This document shows positions 8,055 through 26,066 of a stretch of 26,066 nt of DNA, piece by piece. This DNA is from a virus: the IMG/VR virus record IMGVR_UViG_3300021964_010405, positions 1 to 26,066 of that record; one strand, written 5' to 3'. Each line of letters opens with the position of its first letter. Positions within the stretch are counted from its first letter, which is position 1. Under the pieces are notes generated by a model. That model was not told the DNA's origin. It did not search any database and was given only the letters and a program-made list of their open reading frames with translations. The position numbers and the translations under genes are program-made.

Positions 8055-8064
8055 AGAGGATTTA

Positions 8065-8703
8065 ATGCAAAATTTATATATTCTAGGAGACGGGGGTTTT
8101 TCATCTGAAGTATACGATTGTCAAATACTTCAAGAAAGCTCTGTCTCACACTATAATTTTATTGATTTTTTAAGCTATACGCAAGATAAAAATAAACTTT
8201 TATATTCTTCTACTGGTTTTGATTTTGATTATCCAAGAAATGCTGCCTTCATTTTTGGTTTGACGAGTAGGAAATGGCGTGATATAATCAAAGAACATTT
8301 ACAAGAAAGATATGTTTTTAATAATTATCATTTTCCAAACGCTATTTCTGCAAAAGCACACATATCAAAACTAAGCACAATAGGTATTGGTAATGTTATT
8401 CAGCCTTGGGTAATGATTGCTGGTAATGCAGAAATTGGAGATTTTAACGAGTTTAACTGGTCAGCTTCAATTTCTCACGATTGTAAAATGGGTAATGATA
8501 ATATCTTATCTCCTTATGCGGGAATTATGGGTTTTGGTAAACTCAAAGATAGAAACTGGTTTGGTCCCTACGCTCTTATGGGTTCTTATACAGAAATGGG
8601 AAGTGAAAACCATTTAAGTGCTCACGAGTTTATTCTAGAAGGTAATCTAGGAAACCGCAAATTAGTTAAACAAGGACAAATTTTAGAAAAACCAAAAAGA
8701 TGA
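8065..8703 (+). CDS. NeuD/PglD-like left-handed beta-helix acyltransferase
   Basis: The 212-residue protein starts with a short Rossmann-like domain (MQNLYILGDGGFSSEVYDC) typical of the NeuD/PglD family. It continues into hexapeptide-type turns from about residue 95 to 195. The SISHDCKMGN segment (H138) matches the catalytic histidine region of the sugar N- or O-acetyltransferases in that family, which use acetyl-CoA. The start ATG 8065 has a GAGGA ribosome site directly after the tmRNA. It probably acetylates an amino sugar made by the DegT-type aminotransferases nearby; this is inference from context. It overlaps the next gene through ATGA. Confidence 0.75.
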   Translation: MQNLYILGDGGFSSEVYDCQILQESSVSHYNFIDFLSYTQDKNKLLYSSTGFDFDYPRNAAFIFGLTSRKWRDIIKEHLQERYVFNNYHFPNAISAKAHISKLSTIGIGNVIQPWVMIAGNAEIGDFNEFNWSASISHDCKMGNDNILSPYAGIMGFGKLKDRNWFGPYALMGSYTEMGSENHLSAHEFILEGNLGNRKLVKQGQILEKPKR

Positions 8704-9482
8704 TAATTTTATTTAGATGTTGTGAGGCGGCTACTTCAGCAGGAAGTATGGGAAGTGAAACACAAATAGTTCCTCGTTGGGAAGGTAAATATAAGAACGA
8801 AATTTTTAATGCTTGTTGGCACTCAATGCAACAAGGTATTGAAGAAACAGATAAAATTTATTTTATTTCTGATAGAACTTCACCAGAATCTCTTGCTAAA
8901 TTATCAGAAACAACTATAGCACAAACAGAAATTAGAGAGATTGTGCCTATGGTTGAAAAACAAAAAACACATCCATACCCAAAATATCATCCTGTAGTAG
9001 TTAATGATGCTTCAGAGTTTGCTACACAGCTAATTGATATTGCAGAAAAGAATCCTGATGAAATTATATATGCTTGCGAAGATGATTATTTACATCTTCC
9101 ACATGCAATTCTTGCAATGAAATGGTTATTTAATGCAACAGATCATCAGGGGTTTTATGTACCATATGATTATCCTGATAGATATTCTTTAGATTCCAGT
9201 AGACAATGTGAAGTATTTATTGGTGCTTATGGGCATCTAAGAACTATTCAAAGCTCTACTTTAACAATGGCTGCCAAAGGTAAAACTTTCTTACAGTATA
9301 AGTATGAAATTTTACAAGGAGGTGTTTTCGCACAAGACTCATGGACTTGGAAAGCTTTTAACCAAGTTAAATGTCTAGCTCCTATTCCTGGACATACTAC
9401 ACATCTACAAGACAGATGTATAACACCCATTATTAACTGGAAACAGTATTTTGATTCCCTTCATCCAGAAAAAATCTTTTAA
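8700..9482 (+). CDS. Glycosyltransferase-like protein
   Basis: The 260-residue protein lacks a strongly typical N-terminus but contains IIYACEDDYLHLPHA (around residues 120-135), similar to the metal-binding acidic motif of GT-A glycosyltransferases. A later QDSWTWKAF segment is followed by PIPGHTTHLQ. The early region (ETDKIYFISDRTSPESL) alternates strand and helix as in a GT-A nucleotide-sugar domain. No membrane segment is seen. The start overlaps the acyltransferase stop (ATGA), and its end overlaps the following aminotransferase by 32 bases, so it belongs to the sugar operon. Donor and acceptor are unknown. Confidence 0.5.
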   Translation: MIILFRCCEAATSAGSMGSETQIVPRWEGKYKNEIFNACWHSMQQGIEETDKIYFISDRTSPESLAKLSETTIAQTEIREIVPMVEKQKTHPYPKYHPVVVNDASEFATQLIDIAEKNPDEIIYACEDDYLHLPHAILAMKWLFNATDHQGFYVPYDYPDRYSLDSSRQCEVFIGAYGHLRTIQSSTLTMAAKGKTFLQYKYEILQGGVFAQDSWTWKAFNQVKCLAPIPGHTTHLQDRCITPIINWKQYFDSLHPEKIF

Positions 9483-10455
9483 TTACGCAATCCTTTCTCA
9501 CTATATAGACTCTGCTGTAAAAACTAATCAGTGGAGTAACTATGGTTGGGCAGTACAAGAGCTAGAAAAAGAAGCACGTAACTTATTAAAGATATCAGAG
9601 GAAAAAGCAGTAATCGCTGTTAATTCTGGTACTTCTGCAATTGATTGTATTATACATGGAATGCGTCGATTTGAAGAGCGTAATTTAAGAATTACAACCC
9701 AAGATTTTACTTTTCCTTCTAATGGAATAGGAGCAGCAGAAGGACCTATAGTAGTAGATTTTGATAATGACTTAAATATAAATTATAGAGATGACTATTT
9801 AGTTCATTACGGTGATATTTTAATTGTCACTAATTGTTTTGGTCATTTACAACCAATAGAACAAATTGTAGATGCGTGTAATAAATTAAATAAGTTTGTT
9901 ATTTTTGATAACGCAGCAACCCCATATTCCTTTATTAATGGTCAAAATAGTTGTAATTATGGAGTTGCTTCTTATATATCTTTACACCATACAAAACCTT
10001 TAGGGTTTGGTGAAGGGGGTTTAGTTATTATTGATAAAAAATATGAAGAAATGTGTAGACGAGCTACAAATTTTGGTAAGTTAACAGCTAAAGATTCTCA
10101 CAGCGAATTTAGTGGTAATTTCAAAATGAGCGACCTTTCTGCAGCAGGTATTTTACAGTGGTGGAAAGAACTTAATTTTGATATTGACTCTTTAAAAGAT
10201 GCTTATTTAGAAAATTACTATAAACTTCAATACAAATTTAGAAGAGAAATTAAAGGACAATCGTTTCCTAATATAGCAGATGAGTTTTTTCCTTTTTGTT
10301 TTCCTTGGATTGCAGAAGATCCTACCTATAATCCTTTTAGTAATGTAGAGTTTAGAAAATACTATAAGCCTTTAAGAGGTCTTCCTATTAGCCAAGAAGT
10401 ATACAATCGTATACAATGTTACCCTGTTCACAAGGACATAAAAGATTATGAATAA
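9451..10455 (+). CDS. Second DegT/DnrJ/EryC1/StrS-type PLP aminotransferase
   Basis: The 334-residue protein carries VNSGTSAIDCIIHG (residues 58-70), VIFDNAATPYS with D153, and SLHHTKPLGFGEGG with the Schiff-base lysine at K182, all in the order of the sugar aminotransferase family. It is only distantly similar to the other aminotransferase at 4121. The start is TTG at 9451 inside the end of the preceding gene; it gives the common IPF opening of this family, and no upstream ATG is available. Directly downstream is an RmlB-like dehydratase. Dehydratase plus aminotransferase plus acetyltransferase is the usual set for making a 4,6-dideoxy amino sugar, though the order of reactions is inferred. 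Confidence 0.8.
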   Translation: MIPFIQKKSFNYAILSHYIDSAVKTNQWSNYGWAVQELEKEARNLLKISEEKAVIAVNSGTSAIDCIIHGMRRFEERNLRITTQDFTFPSNGIGAAEGPIVVDFDNDLNINYRDDYLVHYGDILIVTNCFGHLQPIEQIVDACNKLNKFVIFDNAATPYSFINGQNSCNYGVASYISLHHTKPLGFGEGGLVIIDKKYEEMCRRATNFGKLTAKDSHSEFSGNFKMSDLSAAGILQWWKELNFDIDSLKDAYLENYYKLQYKFRREIKGQSFPNIADEFFPFCFPWIAEDPTYNPFSNVEFRKYYKPLRGLPISQEVYNRIQCYPVHKDIKDYE

Positions 10456-11422
10456 AACAGCAATTGTAACTGGTTGCGCTGGATTTATTGGTAATAATTT
10501 ACTATTAAAACTATTATCAGATGGTTGGTATGTTTATGGTATTGATAAAATAGATACTGTGTCAAGTACTGATGAATATGTATCTTATTATAATAATTAT
10601 AAAAATCAATTTACTTTTATTGCAGAAGATGTGCTAAAACAAACTTGGCTTCCTACTGCTGATGTTATTTTTAATCTTGCAGCAGACAGTCATGTAGATA
10701 AAAGTATAATTGATTCTTCTTCTTTTGTTCGTAATAACATTGAAACAGTTAGACATTTGTTACAGTTAATTGAAAAAAGAGTAGCAATTAGTGTAGATCC
10801 TCCTTTATTTTTTCATTTTTCAACAGATGAAGTTTATGGAGATTTAGAAGTAGGTAGTTTTAACGAAAGCTCTCCTTTAAACCCAAGTAATCCTTACTCA
10901 GCAGCAAAAGCAGGAGCAGATTTATTACTAAGTTCTTGGGCTAGAACATATGGACTTAATTACATTATTGTTCGTCCATCTAATAATTTTGGAGATTTTC
11001 AATATCACGAAAAATTAATTCCACTTGCTGTAAAAAAACTTCAGGCAAATAAAAAAATTCATTTGCACAATAGAGGAAAACCAGTTAGAACGTGGACTCA
11101 CGTAAAAGATACTATTGATGCCGTTCTTTTACTGTACGAAAAAGGAGAAAGAAATCGTATTTATAATATTTCTTCTGGATTCGAGCAACCAAATTTAGAA
11201 ACAGCTAAGAAAGTTATTAATTGTTTTTATATGGGAAAACCAAATGTTAATGTTCCAGATTTTCAAACTCATTTAGATTTTTCTTATGAAAGACCTGGGC
11301 AAGATGTGAGATATGCAATAAATTGTATGCCTTTAAACGAACTTGGGTGGGAACCTAAAAAACATTTTGATACCTCTATTGCAAGTGTTGTAGATTTTTA
11401 TAGAAATAGGTTTATTTGGTAA
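10448..11422 (+). CDS. dTDP-glucose 4,6-dehydratase-like enzyme (RmlB family)
   Basis: The 324-residue protein has a Rossmann site VTGCAGFIGNNL (residues 7-18), AADSHVDKSI (79-88), STDEVYGDL (125-133, with T126, D127 and E128 matching the catalytic Thr-Asp-Glu), YSAAK (Y150, K154), RPSNNFGDFQYHEKLIPL and a C-terminal RPGQDVRYAI segment. This set is close to RmlB, which turns dTDP-glucose into the 4-keto-6-deoxy sugar in three steps on bound NAD. Related dehydratases act on CDP-, GDP- and UDP-sugars, so the nucleotide is not certain. It overlaps the aminotransferase upstream by eight bases and the next epimerase by one. Confidence 0.85.
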   Translation: MNKTAIVTGCAGFIGNNLLLKLLSDGWYVYGIDKIDTVSSTDEYVSYYNNYKNQFTFIAEDVLKQTWLPTADVIFNLAADSHVDKSIIDSSSFVRNNIETVRHLLQLIEKRVAISVDPPLFFHFSTDEVYGDLEVGSFNESSPLNPSNPYSAAKAGADLLLSSWARTYGLNYIIVRPSNNFGDFQYHEKLIPLAVKKLQANKKIHLHNRGKPVRTWTHVKDTIDAVLLLYEKGERNRIYNISSGFEQPNLETAKKVINCFYMGKPNVNVPDFQTHLDFSYERPGQDVRYAINCMPLNELGWEPKKHFDTSIASVVDFYRNRFIW

Positions 11423-12429
11423 TGACAAAAGTATTTATTACAGGAATAGGGGGTCTTTTAGGTAGCACTCTTGCAAGAAAATTAATTACTGCTGGAGGCT
11501 ATGATATTCATGGCTGTGATACTTTTATTGGTGGAATTCCTGACAATGTACCTTCTTCAGTAACTTTACACGAATTTGATATTTTAGAATTTGATAAACT
11601 TAAAGAAGCTACAAAGGAAAGTGATTGTATTTTTCACACAGCAGCTCTTCCATATGAGGGGCTTTCAGTATTTTCTCCTAAAATTACAGTAGAATCAATT
11701 GTGTCTGGAACTGTTTCTGTTGCCTCTGCTTGTTTAGCTAATAATATTAGATTATTAATTAATTGTTCTTCTATGGCACGATATGGAGCACAAACACCTC
11801 CTTTTACAGAAGATATGCCTCGTGCACCAGAAGATCCATACGGTTTAGCTAAAGCACAAGCAGAAGAACACTTAGAACTTTTGCATAAACTACACGGATT
11901 AAATTTTGTCACAGTAGTGCCACATAATGTTATTGGTCAAGGACAGAGATACTTTGACCCGTTTAGAAATGTAGTAGGCATTATGATTAATCGAGTACTA
12001 CAAGGAAAAGAAATTATAATTTACGGAGATGGAGAACAAAAACGTTCTTTTTCTAATGTAAGAGACTGTATTGACGCAGTTTATAAAATTATGATTTCTA
12101 AGAGAGATTTAGCAACGCAAGTATATAATATTGGTCCTGATGAAAATGAAATTAGTATCAAACAATTAGCTTATAAAATTGGTAATTTTTGCAATGTGTA
12201 TCCAAAATTATTACATTTTCCTGATAGACCAGCAGAAGTAAAAAACGCTTTTTGTTCTAGTGATAAAATAAGAAAAGATTTTAATTACAATGCTGCTATA
12301 TCTGTAGAAGACACTATTAAAGAAATGGTTAATTGGATTCGACCAAGAGTCCAACCTTTTGAGTATCATCTAGATCTTGAATTTACTAGAGAATACACAC
12401 CTAAAACCTGGACAGAAAAGATTATTTAA
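11422..12429 (+). CDS. NAD-dependent UDP-sugar epimerase-like enzyme
   Basis: The start is ATG 11422 (TAATG overlap with the previous stop); an upstream TTG at 11416 is less likely. The 335-residue protein has ITGIGGLLGSTL (6-17), a serine motif INCSSMARYG (113-122) and a YGLAK pair (Y140, K144), the extended-SDR active site. Later, HNVIGQGQRYFDPF and GDGEQKRSFSNVRDC match the substrate-binding loops of UDP-glucose/UDP-GlcNAc 4-epimerases. Downstream is a GT2 glycosyltransferase with a one-base overlap. It is the third SDR sugar enzyme in the window, so the cassette may make more than one nucleotide sugar. Confidence 0.8.
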   Translation: MTKVFITGIGGLLGSTLARKLITAGGYDIHGCDTFIGGIPDNVPSSVTLHEFDILEFDKLKEATKESDCIFHTAALPYEGLSVFSPKITVESIVSGTVSVASACLANNIRLLINCSSMARYGAQTPPFTEDMPRAPEDPYGLAKAQAEEHLELLHKLHGLNFVTVVPHNVIGQGQRYFDPFRNVVGIMINRVLQGKEIIIYGDGEQKRSFSNVRDCIDAVYKIMISKRDLATQVYNIGPDENEISIKQLAYKIGNFCNVYPKLLHFPDRPAEVKNAFCSSDKIRKDFNYNAAISVEDTIKEMVNWIRPRVQPFEYHLDLEFTREYTPKTWTEKII

Positions 12430-13187
12430 TGTCAGTAAAAATTATATGCCCTTATGTAAACGATATTGAAATTATAAACCACAAAAATCGTTTTTGGAAC
12501 TTATCTGTTTATTATGAAAAAGATACTGCAATGATTGGTTCAGATATGATGTATCAAAAACTGTGGAATCAATTTCCAGAAGATGATATTTTTATCTTAC
12601 ATGCAGACATGTTTCCAGAAGAAACAGATGAATATAATAAATGGTTTGATAAACTACTTGAATATGTAGAAAAGTATCCTGAAGCAGGTATGTTTGGTTG
12701 TTTACTATTATATCCAGCAAAAGACAAAAATGGAAATTTTTTCGTACAATGTGCAGGTGGACGATTTACTAATGACATCCCAGATCATTTTGGAAGCGGA
12801 CTATATCTAGAAACAGGCGGAACTTTTAAAGAAACGTTAGAAACAGACATTGGTCAATATAACAAAGTTCGTAGTGTTGCTTGGACAACTTTCGGAGGAT
12901 TATATATTAGAAGAGAAGTTCTTAATAAGATTGGCAATTTTGATCCTAGATATGAATGGACCTATAATAGAGACGTAGATTATTGTTTAAGAACAAGAGA
13001 AGCAGGATTTAAAATTTATCAAATTCCCGTTCGATTATTTCATCACGAAAGTCGGGATAATAAAATAATTAAAAACAATAATAATAATTTACTAAAAGCA
13101 GAAATGCGTAATCTAGAAACACTTAAAAATTTATGGAGTAATAGTAAGTTTTACAAAACACTTGACGAGGTAGTTTCTAATGAGTAA
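12429..13187 (+). CDS. GT2-type glycosyltransferase
   Basis: The 252-residue protein shows IFILHADMFPEE (a DxD-like metal and donor site), then FGGLYIRREVLNKIGNFD and NRDVDYCLRTREAGFKIYQI followed by VRLFHHES. This is the standard C-terminal pattern of family-2 glycosyltransferases (acceptor-side aspartates, Cys-x-Arg, closing histidine). The N-terminus has a strand IICPYVND as in GT-A folds. No membrane anchor is present. It overlaps the epimerase by one base and the small membrane protein by eight. The sugar transferred is unknown. Confidence 0.8.
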   Translation: MSVKIICPYVNDIEIINHKNRFWNLSVYYEKDTAMIGSDMMYQKLWNQFPEDDIFILHADMFPEETDEYNKWFDKLLEYVEKYPEAGMFGCLLLYPAKDKNGNFFVQCAGGRFTNDIPDHFGSGLYLETGGTFKETLETDIGQYNKVRSVAWTTFGGLYIRREVLNKIGNFDPRYEWTYNRDVDYCLRTREAGFKIYQIPVRLFHHESRDNKIIKNNNNNLLKAEMRNLETLKNLWSNSKFYKTLDEVVSNE

Positions 13188-13407
13188 AATGTACATAACA
13201 AAAGAACAATTAAAGGAAATGTTTATGGATAGAAAAAGAAATTTTACAGGACCTTTTACTTATTTATATATTTTTTTAATATTATTAATATGTTTTATTC
13301 CTGTATTTGCTATTATATTATTAATTAGCTTTCTTGCTATTTGTTATATACCTTTTTATGTTTTAGATGAATATGTTATTAGGAGACTATTAAATGCAAA
13401 AAATTAG
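13180..13407 (+). CDS. Small integral membrane protein
   Basis: The 75-residue protein has a charged N-terminus (about 20 residues, several Lys and Arg) followed by a long hydrophobic stretch from about residue 27 to 62, long enough for one extended or two tightly packed membrane helices, and a short basic tail RRLLNAKN. No family is recognised. It lies between a glycosyltransferase and a methyltransferase, overlapping both, so it may tether the pathway to the inner membrane; that is only a suggestion. A GAGG ribosome site precedes the start. Confidence 0.6.
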   Translation: MSKMYITKEQLKEMFMDRKRNFTGPFTYLYIFLILLICFIPVFAIILLISFLAICYIPFYVLDEYVIRRLLNAKN

Positions 13408-14104
13408 TGAAGCTTTTGTAAAAGCTAGTTTAGAGTTAGCAGACGGAGAAAAAGGAAAACTTACAGATGTAGAAAGACAACTTTATGGTCAAGCATCTAT
13501 TAAGTTAAAAACTTTTTTAAATAATGTTTGTTCTAAAGACAATACAAGATATTTAGAGCTTGGAGTATATAGAGGATCAACTCTTATGAGCGCTGCTTAT
13601 GGTAATAAAACTTTAACGGCTCTTGGTGTAGAAAACTTTAAGTACGACAAAACAGAACCTAAAAAATGGGCAGACGAGGGTTGGCCCAATATGAAGTCTA
13701 ATTTATACGATACACTAACTAAATACTCTTTTGACGATAGTGTTGATATGTCTAAGATAAAAATTATTGAAAGTGATTTTCAGGAAATATCTTGGGGCTC
13801 ACAAGCAAAATTTGATGTAATTTACTTTGATATTGAACCTGTAACAGAAGAAATTTATGATGAATTTTTTAAAAAAGTATTTCAAGCTTTTTCTAGACAG
13901 TGTATTGTTATTTTTTCTCAATACTCAAAAGATGATAAAGCTACTATGTTAGAATCAAAAATTGAACAATATAGTGATAGATTGGTAACAGAATTTAAGT
14001 TCCAAAGAGTATCTAGCGGAACAGCAGATGCATTTGGTTATCATAGCGGAATCGCTGTGTATGGTTTTAGAAAGAAAGCATTTGCAAAAAATGACGAATC
14101 GTAG
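13394..14104 (+). CDS. Class I SAM-dependent methyltransferase-like protein
   Basis: The 236-residue protein has the motif I glycine loop RYLELGVYRGSTLMSA (residues 52-66, ELGVYRG) and a later strand FDVIYFDIEPV that fits motif IV. This is the pattern of the methyltransferase group found in sugar and surface polysaccharide clusters. It probably uses S-adenosylmethionine to methylate a sugar or another small group; the acceptor is not visible. ATG 13394 is well supported by AGGAGA seven bases upstream. It overlaps the membrane protein gene upstream and the next glycosyltransferase by 14 bases. Confidence 0.65.
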   Translation: MQKISEAFVKASLELADGEKGKLTDVERQLYGQASIKLKTFLNNVCSKDNTRYLELGVYRGSTLMSAAYGNKTLTALGVENFKYDKTEPKKWADEGWPNMKSNLYDTLTKYSFDDSVDMSKIKIIESDFQEISWGSQAKFDVIYFDIEPVTEEIYDEFFKKVFQAFSRQCIVIFSQYSKDDKATMLESKIEQYSDRLVTEFKFQRVSSGTADAFGYHSGIAVYGFRKKAFAKNDES

Positions 14105-14930
14105 TAAAAATAGTATTATAAGTTTAATTTCTTATGATGCAGATTATTTACCTAAAAGTATTGAAAAATACTATGAATATGTTGATGAAATTATTTTAGG
14201 GCTAGACAAAGATAGAATTTCTTGGAGTAATAACTCTTTTTCTTTTAATGAAAATAAACTTTGGAAAGAACTTGACGCATTAGATGGAGATTCTAAAATT
14301 TCTATTATCGAAGAAGACTTTCATAAAAGCGAAGTAGCTATTGAAAATGATAATTATGAAAGAAATTTTTTAAAAGAACAATGCTCTAATAATATAATTA
14401 TTAGTATTGATGCTGACGAACAATTACTACAAGCTAAAGACTTTTTTTACAATTTTCTTCCTTTAACCTATTCTTACATAGAAAAATATGATATTTGTAT
14501 GAATTGGGCTACTCCTTACAAACAAATTGAAGATATGACTCTTGTTATTGCTGAAGATGATGATTCTCCTTTGCTTGCAGAAAATCAAAGTTTTATTACA
14601 AATAAAAACGCAACTTTTACTTATGCTCGCTGGACTAATAAAAGTGCGGGCGGACTAAATAGACTTTTAAGTCCTGCTATTATGCTTCATTATTCTTTAT
14701 GTAGAGAAAAGGAAGCATTACATACTAAAATTAATAACATCGGGCATTCTGATATTGTAAATGAAGATCCATTTTACGAAATTTGGTCACAGGTAACTAT
14801 GGATAATTATCACGAACTAAGAAATTTTAAAACATCAGGGCTTGGAGGAGTTCAGTGGCCTAAACTACGCGCAGTACCAACCGCAGAACTTGAAGCTTAT
14901 TACTCTAGCTATTTTGATAAGGTATACTAA
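14091..14930 (+). CDS. Glycosyltransferase-like protein (GT-A type)
   Basis: The start is placed at ATG 14091, giving MTNRSKNSIISLISYDADYL. The frame is open further upstream but would overlap the methyltransferase far more, and the family normally begins with this strand. In 279 residues it has SIISLISYDADYLPKSI, IILGLDKDR, and NIIISIDADEQLLQ, where DAD matches the DxD motif of family-2 glycosyltransferases. A later HYSLCREKEALHTK region may form the acceptor side. It overlaps the next gene by one base (TAATG). No membrane segment is seen. Confidence 0.6.
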   Translation: MTNRSKNSIISLISYDADYLPKSIEKYYEYVDEIILGLDKDRISWSNNSFSFNENKLWKELDALDGDSKISIIEEDFHKSEVAIENDNYERNFLKEQCSNNIIISIDADEQLLQAKDFFYNFLPLTYSYIEKYDICMNWATPYKQIEDMTLVIAEDDDSPLLAENQSFITNKNATFTYARWTNKSAGGLNRLLSPAIMLHYSLCREKEALHTKINNIGHSDIVNEDPFYEIWSQVTMDNYHELRNFKTSGLGGVQWPKLRAVPTAELEAYYSSYFDKVY

Positions 14931-16081
14931 TGAAAGTAGAATTAGTTGGAAAGTTTTTTGATAATCACTCTTTGAGTATTATTAATAGAAACTTAGTAAA
15001 ATATTTAAAAGATAAGTGTGATTTATTAGTTACACCTTTAGATTCTGTAACTACCGAATTTGGAGTAGATATAGATACAGTAAAAACGCTAAAAGACCTA
15101 TCAAATAAAAATGCGATTCCTGATATTCAAATTAGGCATACATACCCTCCAATTTGGAATTGGCCTACTAACTCAGATACAAAAGTGGTATTTATTCAAC
15201 CTTGGGAATACACAAAAGTTCCTTTTGAGTGGCAATACAAGTTTGAAACTTTTGCAGATGCTTTATGCGTTCCAAGTAACTTTGAGAGAGATATATTTTT
15301 AAAAGGAGGTATTAATCCTGATAAAATATTTACTGTACCTAATGGATACGATGATAATGTATATAACAAAAAACCTGTAAAACCTTATAAAAATATTGAT
15401 TCTAGTAAGTTTAACTTTGTATTTATCGGTAATGGACAATGGCGAAAAGGTGTTGATATTTTACTAAATCAGTGGAAAGATGCTTTTACTGCTTCTGATA
15501 ATTGCAGACTAATCATTAAAGATAACTCTGCTATTTATGGACATAATAACTTATTAAATGAAGTTATTAAGATGCAGTATAAAACAGGCTGTGCTCCTAT
15601 TGTGTATATTGATGAGCAACTAACTGATGAAGAAATGGCTGCTATTTATAAAAATTCAAAAGTACTGGTGCATCCTTATAGAGCAGAAGGGTTTGGTATG
15701 CATATCCAAGAAGCCTATGCTTGTGGTTGTCTTCCAATTCTTCCAGATTTTGGCCCTCATCAAGATTTTATCCCAGAAGATCATTACCTAAAGATTCCAA
15801 CTGAACAAAAGATGTTTAATATTTGTGATCCGTCTATATTTGCTACAAAGCCAGGAGATGCTACTACCTTAATGAGCACTCATTCTTTCTATAGAGAACC
15901 TATTGGACAAACACTCCAAAATGCATTAAAATATATTTATTTCCATCATAATAAAAAAGAATGGTATAATAAAATTAATGCAGCTGTTCCAGAAAATAAT
16001 TGGAATCATGTAGTAAATAAATATTGGGAGGTACTTGAAAATGTCGCAAACAGACAAGGAACTCAGCGAGCTAGACAATAA
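14930..16081 (+). CDS. GT-B (GT4-type) glycosyltransferase
   Basis: The 383-residue protein has the two Rossmann-like halves of a GT-B enzyme. The C-terminal half has FVFIGNGQWRKGVDILL (residues 164-179) and the retaining-enzyme motif VHPYRAEGFGMHIQEAYACG, with E253 and E261 forming the spaced Glu pair that holds the donor sugar. The N-terminal half has VPSNFERDIFLKGG and VPNGYDDNVY, also typical. Such enzymes retain the configuration of the transferred sugar. It overlaps the previous gene by one base and the Fe-S carrier gene by 41 bases. Confidence 0.82.
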   Translation: MKVELVGKFFDNHSLSIINRNLVKYLKDKCDLLVTPLDSVTTEFGVDIDTVKTLKDLSNKNAIPDIQIRHTYPPIWNWPTNSDTKVVFIQPWEYTKVPFEWQYKFETFADALCVPSNFERDIFLKGGINPDKIFTVPNGYDDNVYNKKPVKPYKNIDSSKFNFVFIGNGQWRKGVDILLNQWKDAFTASDNCRLIIKDNSAIYGHNNLLNEVIKMQYKTGCAPIVYIDEQLTDEEMAAIYKNSKVLVHPYRAEGFGMHIQEAYACGCLPILPDFGPHQDFIPEDHYLKIPTEQKMFNICDPSIFATKPGDATTLMSTHSFYREPIGQTLQNALKYIYFHHNKKEWYNKINAAVPENNWNHVVNKYWEVLENVANRQGTQRARQ

Positions 16082-16469
16082 AATTTTAAGAGATTTTCAT
16101 TTTAACGCTCCACAAATTAACAATGAAGTACAAGGAACGCTACCTACAATTACAAATAAAGCAAAAATATTTATTGAATCTAATTTAACTCCTGGTTCTT
16201 TTTTTCGATTTGGAATTGCTGGTGGAGGATGCTCTGGGTTTAATTATCTACTAGATGAAGATACAGAACAATCAGAAGATGATATTGTTTTTTGTGATTT
16301 ACCTAAAGCTGTTGTAGATAGAGAAAGTTTAAAATATTTATACGGTTCTATAATTGAATTAGAAGAACAAGGATTCGGAAAAAATTTAGTTATAGAAAAT
16401 CCCGGAGCAAAAAGCTCTTGCGGTTGTGGAAGTAGTTTTAATTTTGATTTTGACTTGTTAAATGACTAA
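16041..16469 (+). CDS. A-type Fe-S cluster carrier (IscA/ErpA/HesB family)
   Basis: ATG 16041 is preceded by GGGAGG (16026-16031). The 142-residue protein has a disordered, charged N-terminal 30 residues, then the HesB fold with GIAGGGCSGFNYLL (C64) and KSSCGCGSSF (C127 and C129), the three conserved cysteines that hold the cluster. All three are present, so cluster binding is likely. Cellular relatives pass [4Fe-4S] or [2Fe-2S] clusters to target proteins. Marine phages are known to carry such genes, thought to support host Fe-S metabolism during infection. Here it overlaps a glycosyltransferase and an iron-dependent hydroxylase-like gene. The insert between C64 and C127 is about typical in length. 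Confidence 0.85.
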   Translation: MSQTDKELSELDNKILRDFHFNAPQINNEVQGTLPTITNKAKIFIESNLTPGSFFRFGIAGGGCSGFNYLLDEDTEQSEDDIVFCDLPKAVVDRESLKYLYGSIIELEEQGFGKNLVIENPGAKSSCGCGSSFNFDFDLLND

Positions 16470-17100
16470 TTATAATTGGATTATAAATGAAAGTAAACTT
16501 CCTTGGTTAAAACTAGACATTGAGTTTCCGTATGAAAAAATGTTGGAAGAAGCTAAAGCACTTAAACCTAATTTTGTTAAACACCGTGCAGAAGATCAAA
16601 TATCTGGATACGGACACAAAGGCTGGTCTAGTTTATGTATTCATGGTATCTCCCCTAGTCATACTAATCATTTTGAGTCTTATGGATACAAATCCAATGA
16701 TGAAACTCCCTACAGATGGACTGATATATCATCTAAATGTTGCGAGACTACTAAATGGTTAACAGAAGTATATCCTTGTGATACGTATTATCGTGTACGT
16801 TTTATGTTATTAGAGCCTGGCGGTTTTATAGCTCCGCACAACGACATGAATAAGCATAGATTATCTCCTGTAAACATAGCTTTAAATCACCCAAAAGGGT
16901 GTATAATGAAAATGGCACACTACGGAACAGTTCCGTTTAATGAAGGTGAAGCATATCTTCTTGACGTAGGTAATATTCATGCGTATTATAATAAAAGTAA
17001 TGAAGATAGATATCATATAATAATACATGGAAATTATAAATCTAACAAACAATGGAAAAAATTAGTTGAAAACAGCTACAAGAAAAATGGGATTAAATAA
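16462..17100 (+). CDS. Aspartyl/asparaginyl beta-hydroxylase-like Fe(II)/2-oxoglutarate oxygenase
   Basis: The 212-residue protein has IAPHNDMNKHRLSPVNIALN (H126 and D128), MAHYGTVPFNEGEAYLLDVG and NIHAYYNKSNEDRYHIIIHG (H173, and R183 for 2-oxoglutarate). The HxD followed by RL, then GE-x-x-LLD and H-x-x-x-N...R, is the pattern of the Asp/Asn beta-hydroxylase family. These enzymes hydroxylate protein side chains or small molecules using oxygen and 2-oxoglutarate. It overlaps the Fe-S carrier by eight bases, suggesting linked expression of two iron proteins. The substrate is unknown. Confidence 0.75.
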   Translation: MTNYNWIINESKLPWLKLDIEFPYEKMLEEAKALKPNFVKHRAEDQISGYGHKGWSSLCIHGISPSHTNHFESYGYKSNDETPYRWTDISSKCCETTKWLTEVYPCDTYYRVRFMLLEPGGFIAPHNDMNKHRLSPVNIALNHPKGCIMKMAHYGTVPFNEGEAYLLDVGNIHAYYNKSNEDRYHIIIHGNYKSNKQWKKLVENSYKKNGIK

Positions 17101-18460
17101 AAACTATATTGTTGGATTATACGATGATAGTGATAGTATACCAAATCCTAACGCAGCACAAAGATCAAAAGAATTAACAGAATTTTTTACCAGATTTAAG
17201 TATTTTGGTCCTATAGTTTACGGGAAAACTGTTAATGAAGTACTAGATAAAGCATTAACTTACGAAGTTGATTATTGTATTGTTCAATGTGTTGGTCATA
17301 TTATAAAAGAGTATGAGTTTTTTAGGCTTCTAGAGTCTTGGATGAATAAATATAATTTTTTTATTACAGGACATATAATGGATAAACAAAGTAAAAACTC
17401 GGCTCATCCAAAAGGAAATGGGTATTATGGGTTACATAAGCAATGTTTGTTAGTTAATCTAAATTATTATAAAAAATTTGATCGCCCTGTTTATGGGAAA
17501 AAAGAAGATTCTGAAGAAACAATTGTTACAAAAGCTATTAGGCATGTAAGAGATATACATGATGACTATACTCCACTAGCTCTAAAACCAACAGAAGAAA
17601 CTGTTGTATGTACACCTTTAGTAGATGGCTGGAATTTTATTAATAAAAGTTTAGAAAATGGTTTGCTTGTTTACAACTTTTTACCAAAAATTAGAGAAAC
17701 AAAACAATATGTATATCCTAATAAAAGTGCGGAAGAACTAAATAAACAGCTTTCTTGGATTAGAGAAATAGTAGATTATGCCCCTACTTGTGTGTTTTTC
17801 TGGAATACAGAGGGGTATTCGGATGTAAAATACGTAAAACTACAAAAACCAATAGATAAGCTATACTCCGTAGCTGCTGCTTTTAAACCTAATTTTTTAC
17901 TTAATGTTTTTGGATTTCATGAAAATACTGAAGTTATCTATTATGATTATAGTAAACAAGCTCTTGCCTTTAAAAAATTATTACTTCAACACTGGGATGG
18001 AGAAAACTACCCAGAGTTTCTAAATTGGGCTAAAAATAAGTGGGCTATTAATGAAACAGCAGGTCAATCAACTGAAAATGAAACTTATCAAGATTTATGG
18101 CAAAACGAAATAAAATGGTGGAAGTCAGAACAAAATATTAAAGAACACTGGCAAGCATATAAAAAATTAAAACATACATTTATACATACCGACATTTGTA
18201 AAACACCTGAAAAAATAACTTCTCAAATTACGGGAAAAGATACAGAATTAATATGGTGGAGTAATGTATTTCATACAGTAAATGCTCATTATGTTAGGGG
18301 TTTACAAGGGGTAAAAAATTGCTATAATGAATGGTTAACACAAGTAAATAATAAAAACCCAAATATTTATATTATGGGAAAAGATTATTTAAATCGTCCT
18401 GTTGAGGGAGGGACTTTAAAGGAGTATATAGATGAACAAAGACCTTTTGAAAACATTTAA
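17087..18460 (+). CDS. Large uncharacterised protein in the sugar operon
   Basis: The start is placed at ATG 17087 (MGLNKNYIVGLYDDSDSIPN), 14 bases before the previous stop. In 457 residues I see repeated strand-helix units and segments such as YCIVQCVGHIIKEYEFFRLL, FFITGHIMDK and YYGLHKQCLLVNLNYYKKF, which give the impression of a GT-A-like nucleotide-sugar domain, but there is no clean DxD, Rossmann glycine loop or other catalytic motif. The second half is rich in Trp, Tyr and Lys. I recall similar unannotated proteins beside glycosyltransferases in marine phages, without being able to name a family. It overlaps the small gene downstream by 29 bases. Confidence 0.55.
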   Translation: MGLNKNYIVGLYDDSDSIPNPNAAQRSKELTEFFTRFKYFGPIVYGKTVNEVLDKALTYEVDYCIVQCVGHIIKEYEFFRLLESWMNKYNFFITGHIMDKQSKNSAHPKGNGYYGLHKQCLLVNLNYYKKFDRPVYGKKEDSEETIVTKAIRHVRDIHDDYTPLALKPTEETVVCTPLVDGWNFINKSLENGLLVYNFLPKIRETKQYVYPNKSAEELNKQLSWIREIVDYAPTCVFFWNTEGYSDVKYVKLQKPIDKLYSVAAAFKPNFLLNVFGFHENTEVIYYDYSKQALAFKKLLLQHWDGENYPEFLNWAKNKWAINETAGQSTENETYQDLWQNEIKWWKSEQNIKEHWQAYKKLKHTFIHTDICKTPEKITSQITGKDTELIWWSNVFHTVNAHYVRGLQGVKNCYNEWLTQVNNKNPNIYIMGKDYLNRPVEGGTLKEYIDEQRPFENI

Positions 18461-19192: not shown

Positions 19193-19471
19193 ATGAATAT
19201 AGATTTTGGAACAGCTTTTCATAAACCAAATGGAAATGCAACAAAAGTAACTTTAAATGAATTTAGAGATATTTTATATCTACATATAAGAGAATATTCT
19301 ATGGATGGAGATACTGGACACTGGTTTCCTACTAAAACAGGATATGCTTTTCCAGCTGACGAAATATCATCACTAATCTCTTTACTTGAAAAAGCAGAAG
19401 AGATTATTAATAATCGTTATAAACACTCCTATCAGTTAGAATTTAACTTTGGAGAAGAGTATGAGTATTAA
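19193..19471 (+). CDS. PC4-like single-stranded DNA-binding protein
   Basis: In the 92-residue protein the section from about residue 17 to 68 (KVTLNEFRDILYLHIREYSM, a GHWFPTKTGYAF hairpin, then a helix of the SSLISLLEKAEE type) fits the PC4/transcriptional-coactivator fold: four curved strands followed by one helix. The bacterial and phage members bind single-stranded DNA as dimers. Key signs are the Y-x-x-R-E strand and the K-x-G-x-x-F turn before the helix. It starts one base after the preceding stop and overlaps the next gene by 11 bases. The call is moderate, since the family is short and variable. Confidence 0.5.
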   Translation: MNIDFGTAFHKPNGNATKVTLNEFRDILYLHIREYSMDGDTGHWFPTKTGYAFPADEISSLISLLEKAEEIINNRYKHSYQLEFNFGEEYEY

Positions 19472-19775
19472 AGCCTGGAGCAATGAACAGGAAGATGAAT
19501 TAATTTTATTATATACTATTGAGGGTAAAAAAGATGTACATAATCTTGCCAACCACTTTGGAAAAGGGTATCGTAGTGTTATAAGTAAATTAGTTCAATT
19601 AAAAATTTACGAAAAACCAGAATTAGAAGAAGAGAATAAAGGTCAAACAGTAAAAGTTATGTTAAGAGATCTTGAAGAACTTTTAGAAATTCAAATTCAA
19701 GGTACAAACCTTAATAAAAAAGAAAATTTAAACGCATTACTTAACGCAGTAAAGGTAAAAATTAATAATGCCTAA
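19461..19775 (+). CDS. Helix-turn-helix (SANT/Myb-like) DNA-binding protein
   Basis: The start at ATG 19461 follows GGAG (19451-19454). The N-terminal 50 residues contain WSNEQEDELILLY, then a second helix HNLANHFGK and a third YRSVISKLVQLKIYEK. This three-helix pattern with RSV-x-x-KL-x-x-L is shared with the repeats of the protein at 22813-23502. The C-terminal half (KVMLRDLEELLEIQ and following) is helical and may mediate pairing. It is probably a small transcription regulator. It overlaps the PC4-like gene and the DUF3310 gene by 11 and 8 bases. Confidence 0.6.
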   Translation: MSIKAWSNEQEDELILLYTIEGKKDVHNLANHFGKGYRSVISKLVQLKIYEKPELEEENKGQTVKVMLRDLEELLEIQIQGTNLNKKENLNALLNAVKVKINNA

Positions 19776-20905: not shown

Positions 20906-20930
20906 TAAACTTCATTAAAGAGGGTTGATG

Positions 20931-22664
20931 ATGAACTACACCGAGCTGAAGAACTTCGTTCTTGAACATTCCCACAAATATTATGATTTATCAGCGCCAA
21001 GCATCTCCGATGCTGAGTGGGATAAGGCTTATGACAAGCTTGAAGCAATGGAACAAGCGCAAGGATGGAAAGACTCGGATTCCCCTACTTTAAAAGTAGG
21101 CGGAGCTTCTGGTAAGATACGTCACCCGTATGCCCTTTATTCACTAAGAAAAGTATATGACAAAAGCGAAATTGAGGAGTGGATGGATGTTCGCACGCCA
21201 AAAATTGATGGAACTAATCTTACTCTTATTTACAAGCGTGGAAAACTCCATTTGGCGCTCACTCGCGGGAATGGAGATCGAGGCGATGATGTTACCGCGC
21301 TCGCACAAGAAATCAGCAACATTCCAAAGCGAATCTCTACCGACCATTTGCGCGTAGTTATCAATGGCGAATGTGTTACAAATAATAAGGTTGAAAACTT
21401 TCGCAATTATGTTAGCGGCGCGCTAGGGCTAAAATCTCCTAAAGAATTTCGTGAAAGATCTATTCAGTTTATTGCTCACGATATTCTATCTTGGAATATG
21501 AGCTATCTCAACAAGATAGAAATTCTTAAGAATATGAACTTTTTTACAGTATTAGATGACGAAGCGTGGGAATATCCTTGTGATGGCGTTGTCTATCGTT
21601 GTAACGATTGGCATCGTTGTAATGATTTAGGATATACTTCTAAATATCCTCGTTTTGCAGTAGCGCTTAAAACTCGGGAAATTCAAACAGCGATTACCAC
21701 GCTACAAGAAGTTATTTGGACAGTTGGAAGAACCGGAACAGTTAATCCAACAGGAGTAGTCTCTCCTGTTATTCTTGACGACGCTACTATTTCTCGCGTC
21801 ACACTACACAATATTGAACAGATTGAAATGCACAATCTTGGGCTAGGAGACAGTATTGAGATTGAGCGGGCGGGTGGAGTTATTCCTAAATTTCTTCGCG
21901 TGATTGAGCACTCTGCACACAATCTAAAAATTAATCAACGACACGCAGAATTGGCTATTAAAGAAGCAGTAGTACGTCATGGTCCCCGACTCAGGGTAAA
22001 GTCAGGGCAAGGCTCATCACTAAAATTGCTTGAACATTTTATCGCAACTCTAAAAATTAAAGGGTTAGGTCCAGCATCTATCAAAAAGCTAGGACTAACC
22101 CATCCAATAGATCTATTTGAAGAACAACCGTGGCATAAACTTGGAGTAAACGGAGAAAAGATTGAAGAAGAGCTTGAACGAGCTAAGCTACAACCGTATT
22201 CTACAGTACTAGGCGCTCTAGGTATTCCAGGACTCGGAAGAACCGCTGCTAAACTAGTAGTGCAGCATATTCCCGAGTTTCGTTCTTTAAGAGATATTGA
22301 CGTATTACCGATTAAGGGAATCGGACCTAAAACAATTGAATCAGTTTTAACCTGGCTAGATGATAACGAAGAATGGGTGATGCAACTCCCACTCCAACTA
22401 AAAGAAGAAATGTCAGTAACCGAAGTGTTACAAGACAACAAAAAAATCTGTATTACTGGTAAGATGGATATGACTCGTAATGAGTTAGCCGATCATCTTT
22501 ATCAATATGGATTTAAGTTTACTTCATCAGTTACAAAAGATTGCTATGCTCTAATTGTATCGGATGATAACCAATCGTCAAAGTATAAAAAAGCACAACA
22601 GCTGGGAATAAAAATTGTCAACTACTGGCAAAATAAAAGTGCTGTACTAAATGGCGATTTTTAA
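20931..22664 (+). CDS. ligA: NAD+-dependent DNA ligase without zinc finger
   Basis: The start ATG 20931 lies six bases after AGAGGG; ATG 20928 is possible. The 577-residue enzyme has domain Ia (HKYYDLSAPSISDAEWD, residues 15-31), the adenylation motif TPKIDG with K91, TRGNGDRGDDVT, GEC with E147, DGVVYR, and the OB-fold with GRTGTVNPTGVV. Helix-hairpin-helix repeats follow (KGLGPAS, PGLGRTA, KGIGPKT), and a C-terminal BRCT domain begins at KKICITGKMD. It seals nicks in duplex DNA during replication, using NAD+ as the AMP donor. The section between OB-fold and first hairpin, where bacterial ligases have four zinc-binding cysteines, contains none, and the protein is about 90 residues shorter than typical LigA. 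All other catalytic motifs look intact. Confidence 0.92.
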   Translation: MNYTELKNFVLEHSHKYYDLSAPSISDAEWDKAYDKLEAMEQAQGWKDSDSPTLKVGGASGKIRHPYALYSLRKVYDKSEIEEWMDVRTPKIDGTNLTLIYKRGKLHLALTRGNGDRGDDVTALAQEISNIPKRISTDHLRVVINGECVTNNKVENFRNYVSGALGLKSPKEFRERSIQFIAHDILSWNMSYLNKIEILKNMNFFTVLDDEAWEYPCDGVVYRCNDWHRCNDLGYTSKYPRFAVALKTREIQTAITTLQEVIWTVGRTGTVNPTGVVSPVILDDATISRVTLHNIEQIEMHNLGLGDSIEIERAGGVIPKFLRVIEHSAHNLKINQRHAELAIKEAVVRHGPRLRVKSGQGSSLKLLEHFIATLKIKGLGPASIKKLGLTHPIDLFEEQPWHKLGVNGEKIEEELERAKLQPYSTVLGALGIPGLGRTAAKLVVQHIPEFRSLRDIDVLPIKGIGPKTIESVLTWLDDNEEWVMQLPLQLKEEMSVTEVLQDNKKICITGKMDMTRNELADHLYQYGFKFTSSVTKDCYALIVSDDNQSSKYKKAQQLGIKIVNYWQNKSAVLNGDF

Positions 22665-22812
22665 TAGATTTTTTATAGAAGCAAAAACGTAAATACATTC
22701 ATTTTAATCTTGCTTCTAATTAAAAAATCTCTTATAATCTAAACATAGTCAAGAAGACAACAACTTCTTGAATATCAACTTTAAATCTTAACTTTGTAAT
22801 GAGGGAATATAA
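22665..22812 (+). promoter_or_regulatory. Promoter and leader of the helix-turn-helix protein gene
   Basis: This 148-base gap has no gene. TTGCTT (22710-22715), a 17-base spacer and a perfect TATAAT (22733-22738) form the best promoter of its class in the window. The predicted start is near 22745, giving a leader of about 68 bases. A GAGGGA ribosome site lies about six bases before ATG 22813. The leader begins with a perfect hairpin, listed separately. Confidence 0.75.
22749..22771 (+). promoter_or_regulatory. Stem-loop at the 5' end of the 22813 gene leader
   Basis: TCAAGAAG (22749-22756) and CTTCTTGA (22764-22771) are perfect complements around a seven-base loop ACAACAA. It begins about four bases after the predicted transcription start. 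It could stabilise the message as an RNA hairpin, or be a palindromic operator as DNA; the sequence alone cannot decide. Confidence 0.6.
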
Positions 22813-23502
22813 ATGAGTAAGTTTGAATACACAGAAGATATGGAAGCTCGTATGCATGATGTATGTGCTTCAGGCGTCACGGAAGAAATTGTCGAAGAGC
22901 TAATGAGCGAGTTCGATTTTCCACGGCGCTCGGTTACTGCTAAGCTACGTAAGCTTGGCTTTGATGTTCCTAAGAAGCCTGGCGCTGCCCCAGTCTTCTC
23001 ACAGGAAGAGACTGACGCTCTTGCAGACTATCTACAAGCCAATTCTGGCACGATGACTGCTGAAGAGATTGCTGCTGACTTTGCCGACGGTAAGTTTACA
23101 GCTCGTCAGATCAACGGTAAGGCTCTTTCCATGGAAATGACTTCACATGTAAAGCCTGCCGAGAAGAAGGTTACTCCACGTACCTACACCGCTGAAGAAG
23201 AGGCTCAGATTGAGTCACTTGTCGACGAAGGTGCTTTCCTGGAGGATATTGCTGAGAAGGTTGGTAAGCCAGTTAACTCAGTTCGCGGTAAGCTTCTTTC
23301 TATGGGCCGTCTACAAGACGTTCAACAGAAGAACAAGAAGTCCGCAAAGACAGATCCTTATGAGGGGATTGAGGATCTACTAGACCAAACTGTTGAAGAG
23401 CTTGCAGAGCACTTTGACAAGACAGTTCGCGGTGTTAAGACCGTTCTAACTCGTCGTGGTCTTTCTTGTGCTGACTACACACCAAAGTCAGTGGCTGAGT
23501 AA
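22813..23502 (+). CDS. Four-repeat helix-turn-helix DNA-binding protein, probably highly expressed
   Basis: The 229-residue protein seems to be built from four related three-helix units at about residues 5-50, 60-110, 124-170 and 182-222. The clearest are FPRRSVTAKLRKLGFD, KPVNSVRGKLLSMGRL and KTVRGVKTVLTRRGLS, each ending in a recognition-like helix of the R/NSV-x-x-KL-x-x-xG type. A similar unit occurs in the protein at 19461. It probably binds DNA along several contacts, as a regulator or nucleoid-type protein. The codon use is unlike its neighbours: every lysine codon I read (20) is AAG, arginine is mostly CGT, and leucine avoids TTA. With a perfect -10 box, a leader stem-loop, a good ribosome site and a following terminator, it looks like a strongly expressed single-gene unit. 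The exact function is unknown. Confidence 0.7.
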   Translation: MSKFEYTEDMEARMHDVCASGVTEEIVEELMSEFDFPRRSVTAKLRKLGFDVPKKPGAAPVFSQEETDALADYLQANSGTMTAEEIAADFADGKFTARQINGKALSMEMTSHVKPAEKKVTPRTYTAEEEAQIESLVDEGAFLEDIAEKVGKPVNSVRGKLLSMGRLQDVQQKNKKSAKTDPYEGIEDLLDQTVEELAEHFDKTVRGVKTVLTRRGLSCADYTPKSVAE

Positions 23503-23524: not shown

Positions 23525-23552
23525 GGGGGACAATAGTGCGCTATTGTCCCCC
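23525..23552 (+). terminator. Strong hairpin terminator after the helix-turn-helix gene
   Basis: GGGGGACAATAG (23525-23536) and CTATTGTCCCCC (23541-23552) form a perfect 12-pair stem with loop TGCG. The downstream sequence TATTGGTATTTAAATG is T-rich but not a clean T-run, so termination efficiency is uncertain. The stem may also protect the 3' end of the message. Confidence 0.8.
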
Positions 23553-23929: not shown

Positions 23930-24712
23930 ATGGCGCGACCACTAACAAAATCAACAGAAATTACAGAAGCTAAAATTCGTCAAGTTATTTGGATGCTTGA
24001 AAAAGCAAACAAGACGAAAAAAGAATGCTGTGAGCATCTTGGTATTGCTTATAATACTAAGAGACTACAAACAATTATTGATGATTTTAGGGCTAAACAA
24101 GATCGAGAAGCAAAGCTAAAAAAACTCGCTAAAACAAAAGTATTTACCGATGCTGAAAAAAATGGTATAGTTAAAGACTATCTAAATGGAGAAACGCAAA
24201 CAGCTATTGCGAGACAGTATCATGTATCTCCACAAAGAATTAAAAAGATTTTAATAGAGATGAACGTGCCAATTAGAGCACGTAGTAAAAAAGCACAACC
24301 AACCGTAGATCACGTAGTTCAAAACTTAGATGTAAAGTTTAATATAGGAGATAAAGTATTTCTTCCACGTTCTAATGACTATGGCGTAATTGAACAAGTT
24401 TTTGATGAAGATTACCTAGAATATTTACGGGAACCAAGACGTCGTAAATACGTAGAGCTTCATGCTTTTGAAGCAGCTAAAAAGAAGCATGGAGAAGAAT
24501 TTGAAGGAAAAGAAGATATACACTGGAATATTTACTGGGAATATGATAATGGTAGTGAGTGGAAAGAGTTTGCTATAAAAGAAAAAATTAATAAAGTTGA
24601 GTCTATAATCGAAGAAACAGGTAGGGAGTATTACCGTATCTGGATTCAAGGAGATCATGGACATTTTACTGACGAAGTCAGACACAATCTTTATCCAGTA
24701 GTCACACAATAA
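23930..24712 (+). CDS. Helix-turn-helix DNA-binding regulator
   Basis: The 260-residue protein has two helix-turn-helix units. The first, in residues 10-52, contains NKTKKECCEHLGIAYNTKRL. The second, in residues 72-118, contains GETQTAIARQYHVSPQRIKK, very similar to resolvase/Hin-type DNA-binding units, followed by a basic RARSKK tail. The C-terminal half begins with a beta-rich KFNIGDKVFLPRSNDYGVIE segment like an SH3-type barrel and is otherwise unfamiliar. A GGAGG ribosome site precedes ATG 23930 and the promoter at 23882 drives it. The stop overlaps the helicase start (TAATG), so it may control or load the replication module. It is likely a transcription factor, but a replication initiator is possible. 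Confidence 0.65.
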   Translation: MARPLTKSTEITEAKIRQVIWMLEKANKTKKECCEHLGIAYNTKRLQTIIDDFRAKQDREAKLKKLAKTKVFTDAEKNGIVKDYLNGETQTAIARQYHVSPQRIKKILIEMNVPIRARSKKAQPTVDHVVQNLDVKFNIGDKVFLPRSNDYGVIEQVFDEDYLEYLREPRRRKYVELHAFEAAKKKHGEEFEGKEDIHWNIYWEYDNGSEWKEFAIKEKINKVESIIEETGREYYRIWIQGDHGHFTDEVRHNLYPVVTQ

Positions 24713-26066
24713 TGGCATTAGATTTACAAAAAATTACTCTGCGTAGATTATTGGATACGCAGAGCCATGAACTATATTCTAAAATATCTGGTGATTATTT
24801 TACCGGAATAAATCGTGTTATCTATGATAAAGTACAAACATTTTATAAAGCAAATTTACGTCTTCCTAGTATAGAAGAATTTCATATTATTCGTAAAGAT
24901 GAAGTACTTCAACAATATCTTGATACAGAAATCATTTCTGAAGATAATGTAAATGAAACAATTGCTAATGAGTTTTTGCTTTCACAATTACAAGATTATT
25001 TTATTCGAGAAGAGACTATTGACTTTTTAGATAAATTTGTAGATTCTCTTGATAATTTAGAAAAAATAGAAATTGTAGATAAATTTCAATCACACTTATT
25101 ACACCTTAATTCTGCAATACCTTACGATGATGAGCTTTATGATGTAGCAGAACTTGAGTTTTTTCCGTCTGAAGATGATTTTCGTATTTTTCCAACAGGA
25201 TTATCTGCTGAATATGATTCTGTTAATGGGGGTTTTGCTACACAAGAACTAGTATTGTTGGGCGGTCGCCGCGGTTCGGGTAAATCTATTATCTCTTTAA
25301 ACCTTGCTTTAAATAGGTTTTTAGAAGGTAATACTGTATCTTTTTTCTCAATTGAAATGCGGTACAAAGAAGTTTATGATAGAGTGCTTAGTATTATTTC
25401 TGGTGTTCCTTTCTTAGATTTATTTAGAAACAAACTTAATGATGGGCAAAAAATTCAATTAGCAGAAGCAAAGTTTAAAAACTTTTATGAAGAGTCTGAT
25501 TTAGTTAAAAATCTTTTAGGAGAACTAAAACAGAAGAAAGATTTCAAAAAGTTTGAAACAAGAGTTAAAACAGAAAAACCAAAACTAAAAGATCATAGAT
25601 TATTTTTAATTGATGATGAATCTCTAACTCTTAATCGAATTGATCATTATTGTAATATGTTTACAAATAAATACCCAGACTATAATATGGCAGTAGTAGA
25701 CTATTTAAATATCGTAAAACACCCAGATCAAAAGAACTGGACTTCTCAAATTGAAATTGCAGATAATCTAAAATCTTTAGCGCGTAAACATGATGTGACA
25801 ATGCTAACACCTTATCAAATTGATGCAACGGGAGAAGCTCGTTTCGCAAAAGGCATTTTAGATGCTGCAGACAGAGGTTTAAACTTTTTTCCACCGCCTG
25901 AGAATGAGCAACGAGAACAAGAAAGCAAACTAACAATTCATACTACTAAAATTCGTAATGGTAAACATATGAGTTTTGATGTGTATATGGATTGGAGCTG
26001 TGTTAAAATTGACCCTAATCAGTCTGCAATAATTAATGAAAAACCTCATAATTCTGTAAAATTTGG
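24712..26066 (+). CDS. DnaB-type replicative DNA helicase, C-terminal end cut by the window
   Basis: ATG 24712 overlaps the previous stop by one base; 451 codons are visible and no stop is reached before the edge. After an N-terminal domain of about 155 residues, the RecA-like domain shows ELVLLGGRRGSGKSIISLNL with Walker A at 184-192 (K191), FFSIEM (glutamate E215), Walker B MAVVDYL with D330, and MLTPYQID with Q369 in the position of the conserved motif H3 glutamine. The segment TTKIRNGKH near residue 411 fits the arginine-containing C-terminal motif. The protein unwinds duplex DNA at the fork as a hexamer. There is no primase domain in the visible part. The insert between residues 235 and 300 is Lys-rich and longer than in DnaB. 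Confidence 0.85.
   Translation, partial: MALDLQKITLRRLLDTQSHELYSKISGDYFTGINRVIYDKVQTFYKANLRLPSIEEFHIIRKDEVLQQYLDTEIISEDNVNETIANEFLLSQLQDYFIREETIDFLDKFVDSLDNLEKIEIVDKFQSHLLHLNSAIPYDDELYDVAELEFFPSEDDFRIFPTGLSAEYDSVNGGFATQELVLLGGRRGSGKSIISLNLALNRFLEGNTVSFFSIEMRYKEVYDRVLSIISGVPFLDLFRNKLNDGQKIQLAEAKFKNFYEESDLVKNLLGELKQKKDFKKFETRVKTEKPKLKDHRLFLIDDESLTLNRIDHYCNMFTNKYPDYNMAVVDYLNIVKHPDQKNWTSQIEIADNLKSLARKHDVTMLTPYQIDATGEARFAKGILDAADRGLNFFPPPENEQREQESKLTIHTTKIRNGKHMSFDVYMDWSCVKIDPNQSAIINEKPHNSVKF

Follow-up and report, generated by a model that had tools for sequence, protein, structure and literature searches.

A distant marine homologue of the phage T5 D5 protein with four helix-turn-helix units and strongly biased codons

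Early in infection, phage T5 makes large amounts of its D5 protein, which binds duplex DNA cooperatively and is required for replication and late transcription to proceed normally; the classical work on it was reportedly that of McCorquodale et al. and of Rice et al. in 1979. In the available text of PMC3326045, D5 was described with an XRE-type helix-turn-helix (HTH) domain. In the available text of a 2026 preprint (PMC13405049), T5 D5 was described as an HTH-motif protein of 26 kDa by mass photometry, which triggers retron-Kva2, is predicted by AF3 to bind the msDNA stem-loop of this retron, and is toxic to E. coli on its own. Because it triggers retron-Kva2, D5 matters in phage-host conflict. 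D5 is a little-studied and apparently major protein of T5-like phages, and a type IX retron has recently been reported to be triggered by it.

We analyzed a stretch of viral DNA of 26,066 nucleotides (hereafter the window), in which an ORF at 22813-23502 starts with ATG and encodes a protein of 229 aa, with a calculated mass of 25.4 kDa and a pI of 4.9. The initial annotation of this DNA, made from the sequence without database searches, stated that the protein could not be assigned to a known family. It was found that phrog_323, "transcriptional regulator, D5-like," matches the protein at 8e-28 and that a tblastn search with it matched 898 phage records, 895 of them at ≥80% of its length, with "D5 protein" as the annotation in many of these records. 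The best identity was 42.7% (coverage 97%), to Vibrio phages of the T5 family Demerecviridae, and the top match of a Foldseek search in viral models was the D5 of a Vibrio phage (9e-20). Two scans of viral contigs added further members, namely 53 close relatives and, in the profile scan, over 500 relative-encoding stretches, from which 80 loci were retained; two alignments (A1 and A2), of 35 and 53 relatives, were built. As the reference for T5, the T5-like E. coli phage DT57C was used. Since sequence, length, gene order, and codon signature agree, the window gene is, by these sequence criteria, the D5 orthologue, encoding a protein homologous along its full length to D5, the DNA-binding/transcription protein of T5, and the earlier view that it belongs to no known family is withdrawn. 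The principal genes of this part of the window are as follows.

19449-19775, + strand: small one-unit D5-like protein with its own C-terminal half (phrog_323, 2e-5; phrog_1725, 0.017)
20925-22664, + strand: NAD-dependent DNA ligase, one ORF of 579 aa (phrog_3869, 5.7e-117)
22813-23502, + strand: D5 homologue with four tandem three-helix HTH units (phrog_323, tblastn, AlphaFold2)
23930-24712, + strand: homologue of T5 D2 with HTH units (phrog_3611, the PHROG of T5-like D2, 9.2e-28)
24712-26064, + strand: DnaB-like replicative helicase in the T5 D6 position, open at the window end (phrog_19, 1.7e-49; Pfam DnaB_C, 2.1e-22)

In seven annotated T5-like phages, the gene order is ligase, D5, and DnaB-type helicase, and the window keeps this order with two extra ORFs, a small one and the D2 homologue, ahead of the helicase. 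The PM135 helicase, encoded at the same position, also belongs to phrog_19. The window D2 homologue was aligned with T5-like D2 by HHalign at 99.7% probability (E 1.3e-26, 211 columns). The protein encoded at 19449-19775 is the probable counterpart of T5 D3, as suggested by its match to phrog_1725, the D3 PHROG; a direct HHalign comparison with D3 was weak. Positions 4121-18460 contain a long run of glycosyltransferase, aminotransferase, and epimerase-like genes, which looks like a sugar-modification cluster adjoining the replication genes. In both marine contigs in which it was identified (L204, L205; L206 8398-11136), the capsid-domain ORF was unusually long, its open frame spanning about 910 aa.

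To the initial annotation, the protein appeared to consist of four tandem HTH units, and structure prediction had been named as a way to check this, with a model lacking such units as the refuting outcome. AlphaFold2, run on the alignment of 53 relatives, gave a model (mean pLDDT 89.6, pTM 0.42) with four groups of three helices, each group closing with a recognition helix and joined to the next by a flexible linker. The predicted units, with approximate residues, are located as follows.

22813-22968, + strand: HTH unit 1, about residues 1-52, recognition helix 38-47 (AlphaFold2)
22984-23154, + strand: HTH unit 2, about residues 58-114, recognition helix 97-106 (AlphaFold2)
23167-23328, + strand: HTH unit 3, about residues 119-172, recognition helix 154-163 (AlphaFold2)
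23344-23478, + strand: HTH unit 4, about residues 178-222, recognition helix 205-215 (AlphaFold2)

When the profiles of the units were compared with one another, all six pairs scored 23 to 49, whereas the highest of 180 column-shuffled controls reached 18.5, and the profile of unit 2 matched that of unit 3 at a probability of 97%. Therefore, the units are true repeats, and the architecture first read from the letters is borne out by both the model and the repeat comparison. The alignments of 35 and 53 relatives, the model, and the repeat test show the four-unit HTH architecture to be common to the D5 family; it is not described in the available text of the accounts of the D5 fold cited above (PMC3326045, PMC13405049).

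The fold of the units was compared with that of known DNA-binding proteins by VIA-align. Unit 1 aligned with homeodomains at Z 6-7 over 49 residues with an rmsd of about 2, and unit 3 aligned with the DNA-binding domain of Caulobacter GcrA at Z 7.2-7.4 with 25-27% identity, with homeodomains tied. At this unit size, Z values of 6-7.4 appear to indicate a shared fold, no more. For Myb/SANT, one of the comparisons proposed earlier, PF00249 scored 13.1 bits, below its curated cut-off of 24.4, and there was no significant Pfam match of window D5 to either Myb or GcrA. GcrA (PF07750) was absent from the Pfam matches of window D5 up to E 1, and it matched just 6 of the 53 family members, at best at 2.6e-4. 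The same Pfam scan contained no model for RsfA at E up to 1 and none for histone-like proteins. A Sigma70_r4_2-like match to unit 4 was present in 52 of 53 family members and was sub-threshold in window D5. A sequence search of solved structures with window D5 alone found nothing convincing, whereas the best matches of the D5 profile to solved structures were short repeats and homeodomain variants. A Foldseek search of the PDB with the whole model gave no match at E 0.001, the outcome to be expected when four domains are joined flexibly (pTM 0.42).

The residues that are invariant in the alignment of 53 relatives lie mostly in the third helices of the units: 18 of 24 fall in these four helices, which make up 41 of the 229 positions (p 6e-11). 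They include R39, S40, K44, L45, and R46 in unit 1; G102, K103, and L105 in unit 2; R158, G159, K160, L162, and S163 in unit 3; and R206, G207, L212, R214, and R215 in unit 4. The recognition helices hold 13 of the 31 basic and none of the 43 acidic residues of window D5. In the model, four loosely joined units with basic recognition helices would fit long, cooperative, and weakly specific binding. The net charge of the whole protein is about -12 at pH 7, in keeping with its pI of 4.9, compared to about 0 for DT57C D5. Such an acidic charge is unusual for a DNA-coating protein and is a point against simple electrostatic coating, although the recognition helices are basic.

The codon usage of the gene differs strongly from that of its neighbors. 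All 20 lysines are encoded by AAG, as had been counted initially, and none by AAA, compared to about 17% AAG elsewhere in the window; alanine is GCT in 16 of 23 cases, arginine CGT or CGC in 10 of 11, and glycine GGT or GGC in 12 of 13, and leucine TTA does not occur. Measured against the synonymous usage of the other window genes, D5 was the most deviant gene (z 24.6), so that the impression of strong bias relative to the neighbors is confirmed; the other genes were below 3 apart from the ligase at 20925-22664, which was second (13.5). Because the window record is just 26 kb, codon ranks beyond it were taken from relatives. When the 98 annotated genes of DT57C were ranked by codon deviation per codon, D5 came 1st and the gene of the major head (capsid) protein 2nd. 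In stretches of a 173-kb marine contig with a relative (74-75% identical), D5 ranked 1st of 53 and the capsid gene 4th. In most of the further loci, D5 ranked 1 to 3. The preferred lysine codon depends on the lineage (AAG in the window, AAA in DT57C and in L047), and arginine is CGT/CGC in all three. Since D5 tops the ranks in DT57C and in the marine relative, with the capsid gene near the top, the D5 bias very probably reflects extreme expression. Several marine relatives (L029, L030, and L033) show little or none of this bias, and so very high expression would not be universal in the D5 family.

The initial annotation had described the gene as standing alone between a near-perfect promoter and a 12-pair hairpin. 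The D5 ORF begins 148 bases after the ligase stop (22664) and ends 63 bases ahead of the next ORF (23566), and it is accompanied by the following elements.

22710-22738, + strand: T5-type promoter, TTGCTT-17-TATAAT, the sole exact TTGCT-N18-TATAAT in the window
22749-22771, + strand: predicted hairpin at the 5′ end of the D5 transcript, TCAAGAAG-7-CTTCTTGA (-8.3 kcal/mol, z -3.1)
22801-22805, + strand: Shine-Dalgarno sequence GAGGG, 7 nt ahead of the ATG (sequence reading)
23525-23552, + strand: 12-pair, terminator-like hairpin with 7 G-C pairs and a weak T tail

The exact TTGCT-N18-TATAAT motif is expected by chance 0.09 times in the window, and in 30.7 kb of DT57C it was observed 7 times against 0.06 expected. 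The available text of PMC3326045 gives the promoter consensus of the T5-like phage AKFV33 as TTGCTw, 17-18 bp, and TATAATA, which the D5 promoter matches exactly through TATAAT, with a difference in the base that follows. The term near-perfect is correct for the -10 element (TATAAT, 6/6), but the -35 element TTGCTT agrees with the E. coli consensus at just 3/6 positions, which is why a generic promoter scan did not return this promoter. The hairpin after the gene has the 12 pairs initially reported, with a folding energy in context of -26.6 kcal/mol (z -6.6), and a strong hairpin lies within 70 nt past the D5 stop in 31 of 32 D5 genes compared to 0.2% of shuffles. No Rfam family was found at the D5 locus.

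The hairpin at 22749-22771 should form the beginning of the D5 transcript. A stem of at least 7 pairs was found in 82% of 51 marine D5 leaders, compared to 6.9% of shuffles. The stems vary in sequence (TCAAGAAG, GTTGAGA, CGAAAC, AGTTGG, and GAGAGA), with pairing kept, and in CAAGAG-type stems the outer pair is T-A, A-T, or G-C; these are direct comparisons of leader sequences. Where an exact T5-type promoter precedes D5, all 12 distinct leaders have the leader hairpin, whereas most other exact T5-type promoters have no hairpin at the corresponding place. About half of the marine leaders, not including that of the window, carry the Shine-Dalgarno sequence in the loop of a small hairpin with arms GATC/GATC or GTTC/GAAC. 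This hairpin lies in the last 25 nt before D5 in L063, L067, L073, L104, and about 20 further loci, and its arms change together, being GATC/GATC at some loci and GTTC/GAAC at others. Phage T4 gp32 limits its own synthesis via its own mRNA, which is a precedent for autoregulation. We tentatively suggest, as an idea that is on balance unlikely, that the marine D5 mRNA is a dedicated high-output unit stabilized by its 5′ hairpin and that D5, which retron-Kva2 reportedly senses through a DNA stem-loop, may bind one of these two kinds of hairpin and so limit its own synthesis.

By analogy with T5, the D5 of this T5-like marine phage likely binds duplex DNA and is required both for replication and for the switch to late transcription. 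It would be made in very large amounts early in infection, from a transcript that carries this gene alone between two hairpins and may raise D5 output far above that of its neighbors. The protein would then lie on duplex phage DNA with several units at once, the loose linkers between the four units favoring long, cooperative binding of weak sequence specificity; it would also support phage DNA replication and be required for early transcription to give way to late. The earlier guess of an abundant DNA-coating or master regulatory protein corresponds to the usual description of T5 D5. In outline, that first interpretation holds, with its four Myb- or homeodomain-like HTH units and probable abundance, the latter indirectly supported by the codon usage and by published mass spectrometry of a T5-like phage (PMC8624392); its statement on the family does not hold.

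A different possibility is that D5, instead of coating DNA, works as a true transcription factor, a master regulator that recognizes specific sequences at a small number of late promoters. The four Myb/GcrA/homeodomain-like units, the high conservation of the recognition helices, and the annotation "transcription factor" in several phages are all compatible with such a role. However, the D5 codon signature exceeds that of the major capsid gene, which better suits a bulk protein, and so does the strong mass-spectrometry signal of D5 (Gp110/T5.118), which was among the major virion-associated proteins of the T5-like phage phiR2-01 (PMC8624392); we regard the specific regulator as conceivable, although rather improbable. 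The same presence among the main proteins of phiR2-01 particle preparations could indicate that D5 serves chiefly as a component of the virion or of the head interior and is packaged along with the DNA. This is very unlikely, given that T5 virions are without identified D5, according to the same report (PMC8624392), and that the D5 gene lies in the replication cluster, distant from the structural genes.

The unusual codons might also have a different origin, namely recent acquisition of the gene from a host instead of high expression, since the composition of D5 is sharply unlike that of its neighbors. Against this, the gene is present at ≥80% of its length in 895 phage records, and those examined resemble one another in gene order; the bias recurs across lineages that differ in their preferred codons; the DT57C capsid gene shows a like codon shift; and just four relatives, all on MAG contigs, turned up when genome contigs of bacteria and archaea were scanned. 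Host acquisition as the cause of the bias was rejected on the grounds of the recurrent bias, the capsid shift, and the four MAG-contig relatives, and we consider it highly improbable. The bias is instead the pattern of translation selection on a protein that appears to be mass-produced.

These results extend the D5 family, itself already known, to many marine virus contigs; what is new is a distant marine member, the four-unit architecture, the relation of D5 to D2 and D3, and the leader hairpin, which points to a little-studied element of D5 mRNAs. The top codon signature of D5 holds in both enterobacterial and marine phage and, together with the four HTH units and the unit common to D2 and D3, gives testable reasons for the proposed DNA coating and for a possible bacterial sensing of D5.

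Among known systems, RsfA and the bacterial histone-like proteins, named in the initial annotation, resemble D5 in the proposed DNA-binding role. The GcrA DNA-binding domain and the Myb and homeodomain units appear to share the three-helix fold of the D5 units, with unit 3 nearest in structure to GcrA and unit 1 to homeodomains; GcrA has one such DNA-binding domain plus a sigma-70-binding domain. T5 D3 (PHROG 1725) shares the HTH unit (D3 compared with D5 unit 1: HHalign 95.7%, E 9e-9) and differs from D5 in having one unit plus its own C-terminal region, and T5 D2 (PHROG 3611) also shares the unit (D2 compared with D5: HHalign 72.5%, E 3e-5) and differs in having another C-terminal half. Unlike D5, neither D2 nor D3 is in the top ten codon-deviant genes of DT57C. 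The closest system is T5 D5 (T5.118; PHROG 323), with homology over the whole length, four aligned units, the ligase/helicase neighborhood, exceptional codon bias, and a T5-type promoter that lies upstream of the window gene. Compared to DT57C D5, the window protein is about 38% identical, 26 residues shorter, and much more acidic. The window D5 has its own promoter and hairpin, whereas T5 D5 comes directly after ligB; a D2 homologue and one small ORF separate the window D5 from the helicase; and the window ligase is a single-chain protein encoded by one ORF, in contrast to the separate ligA and ligB genes of the T5-like phages examined.
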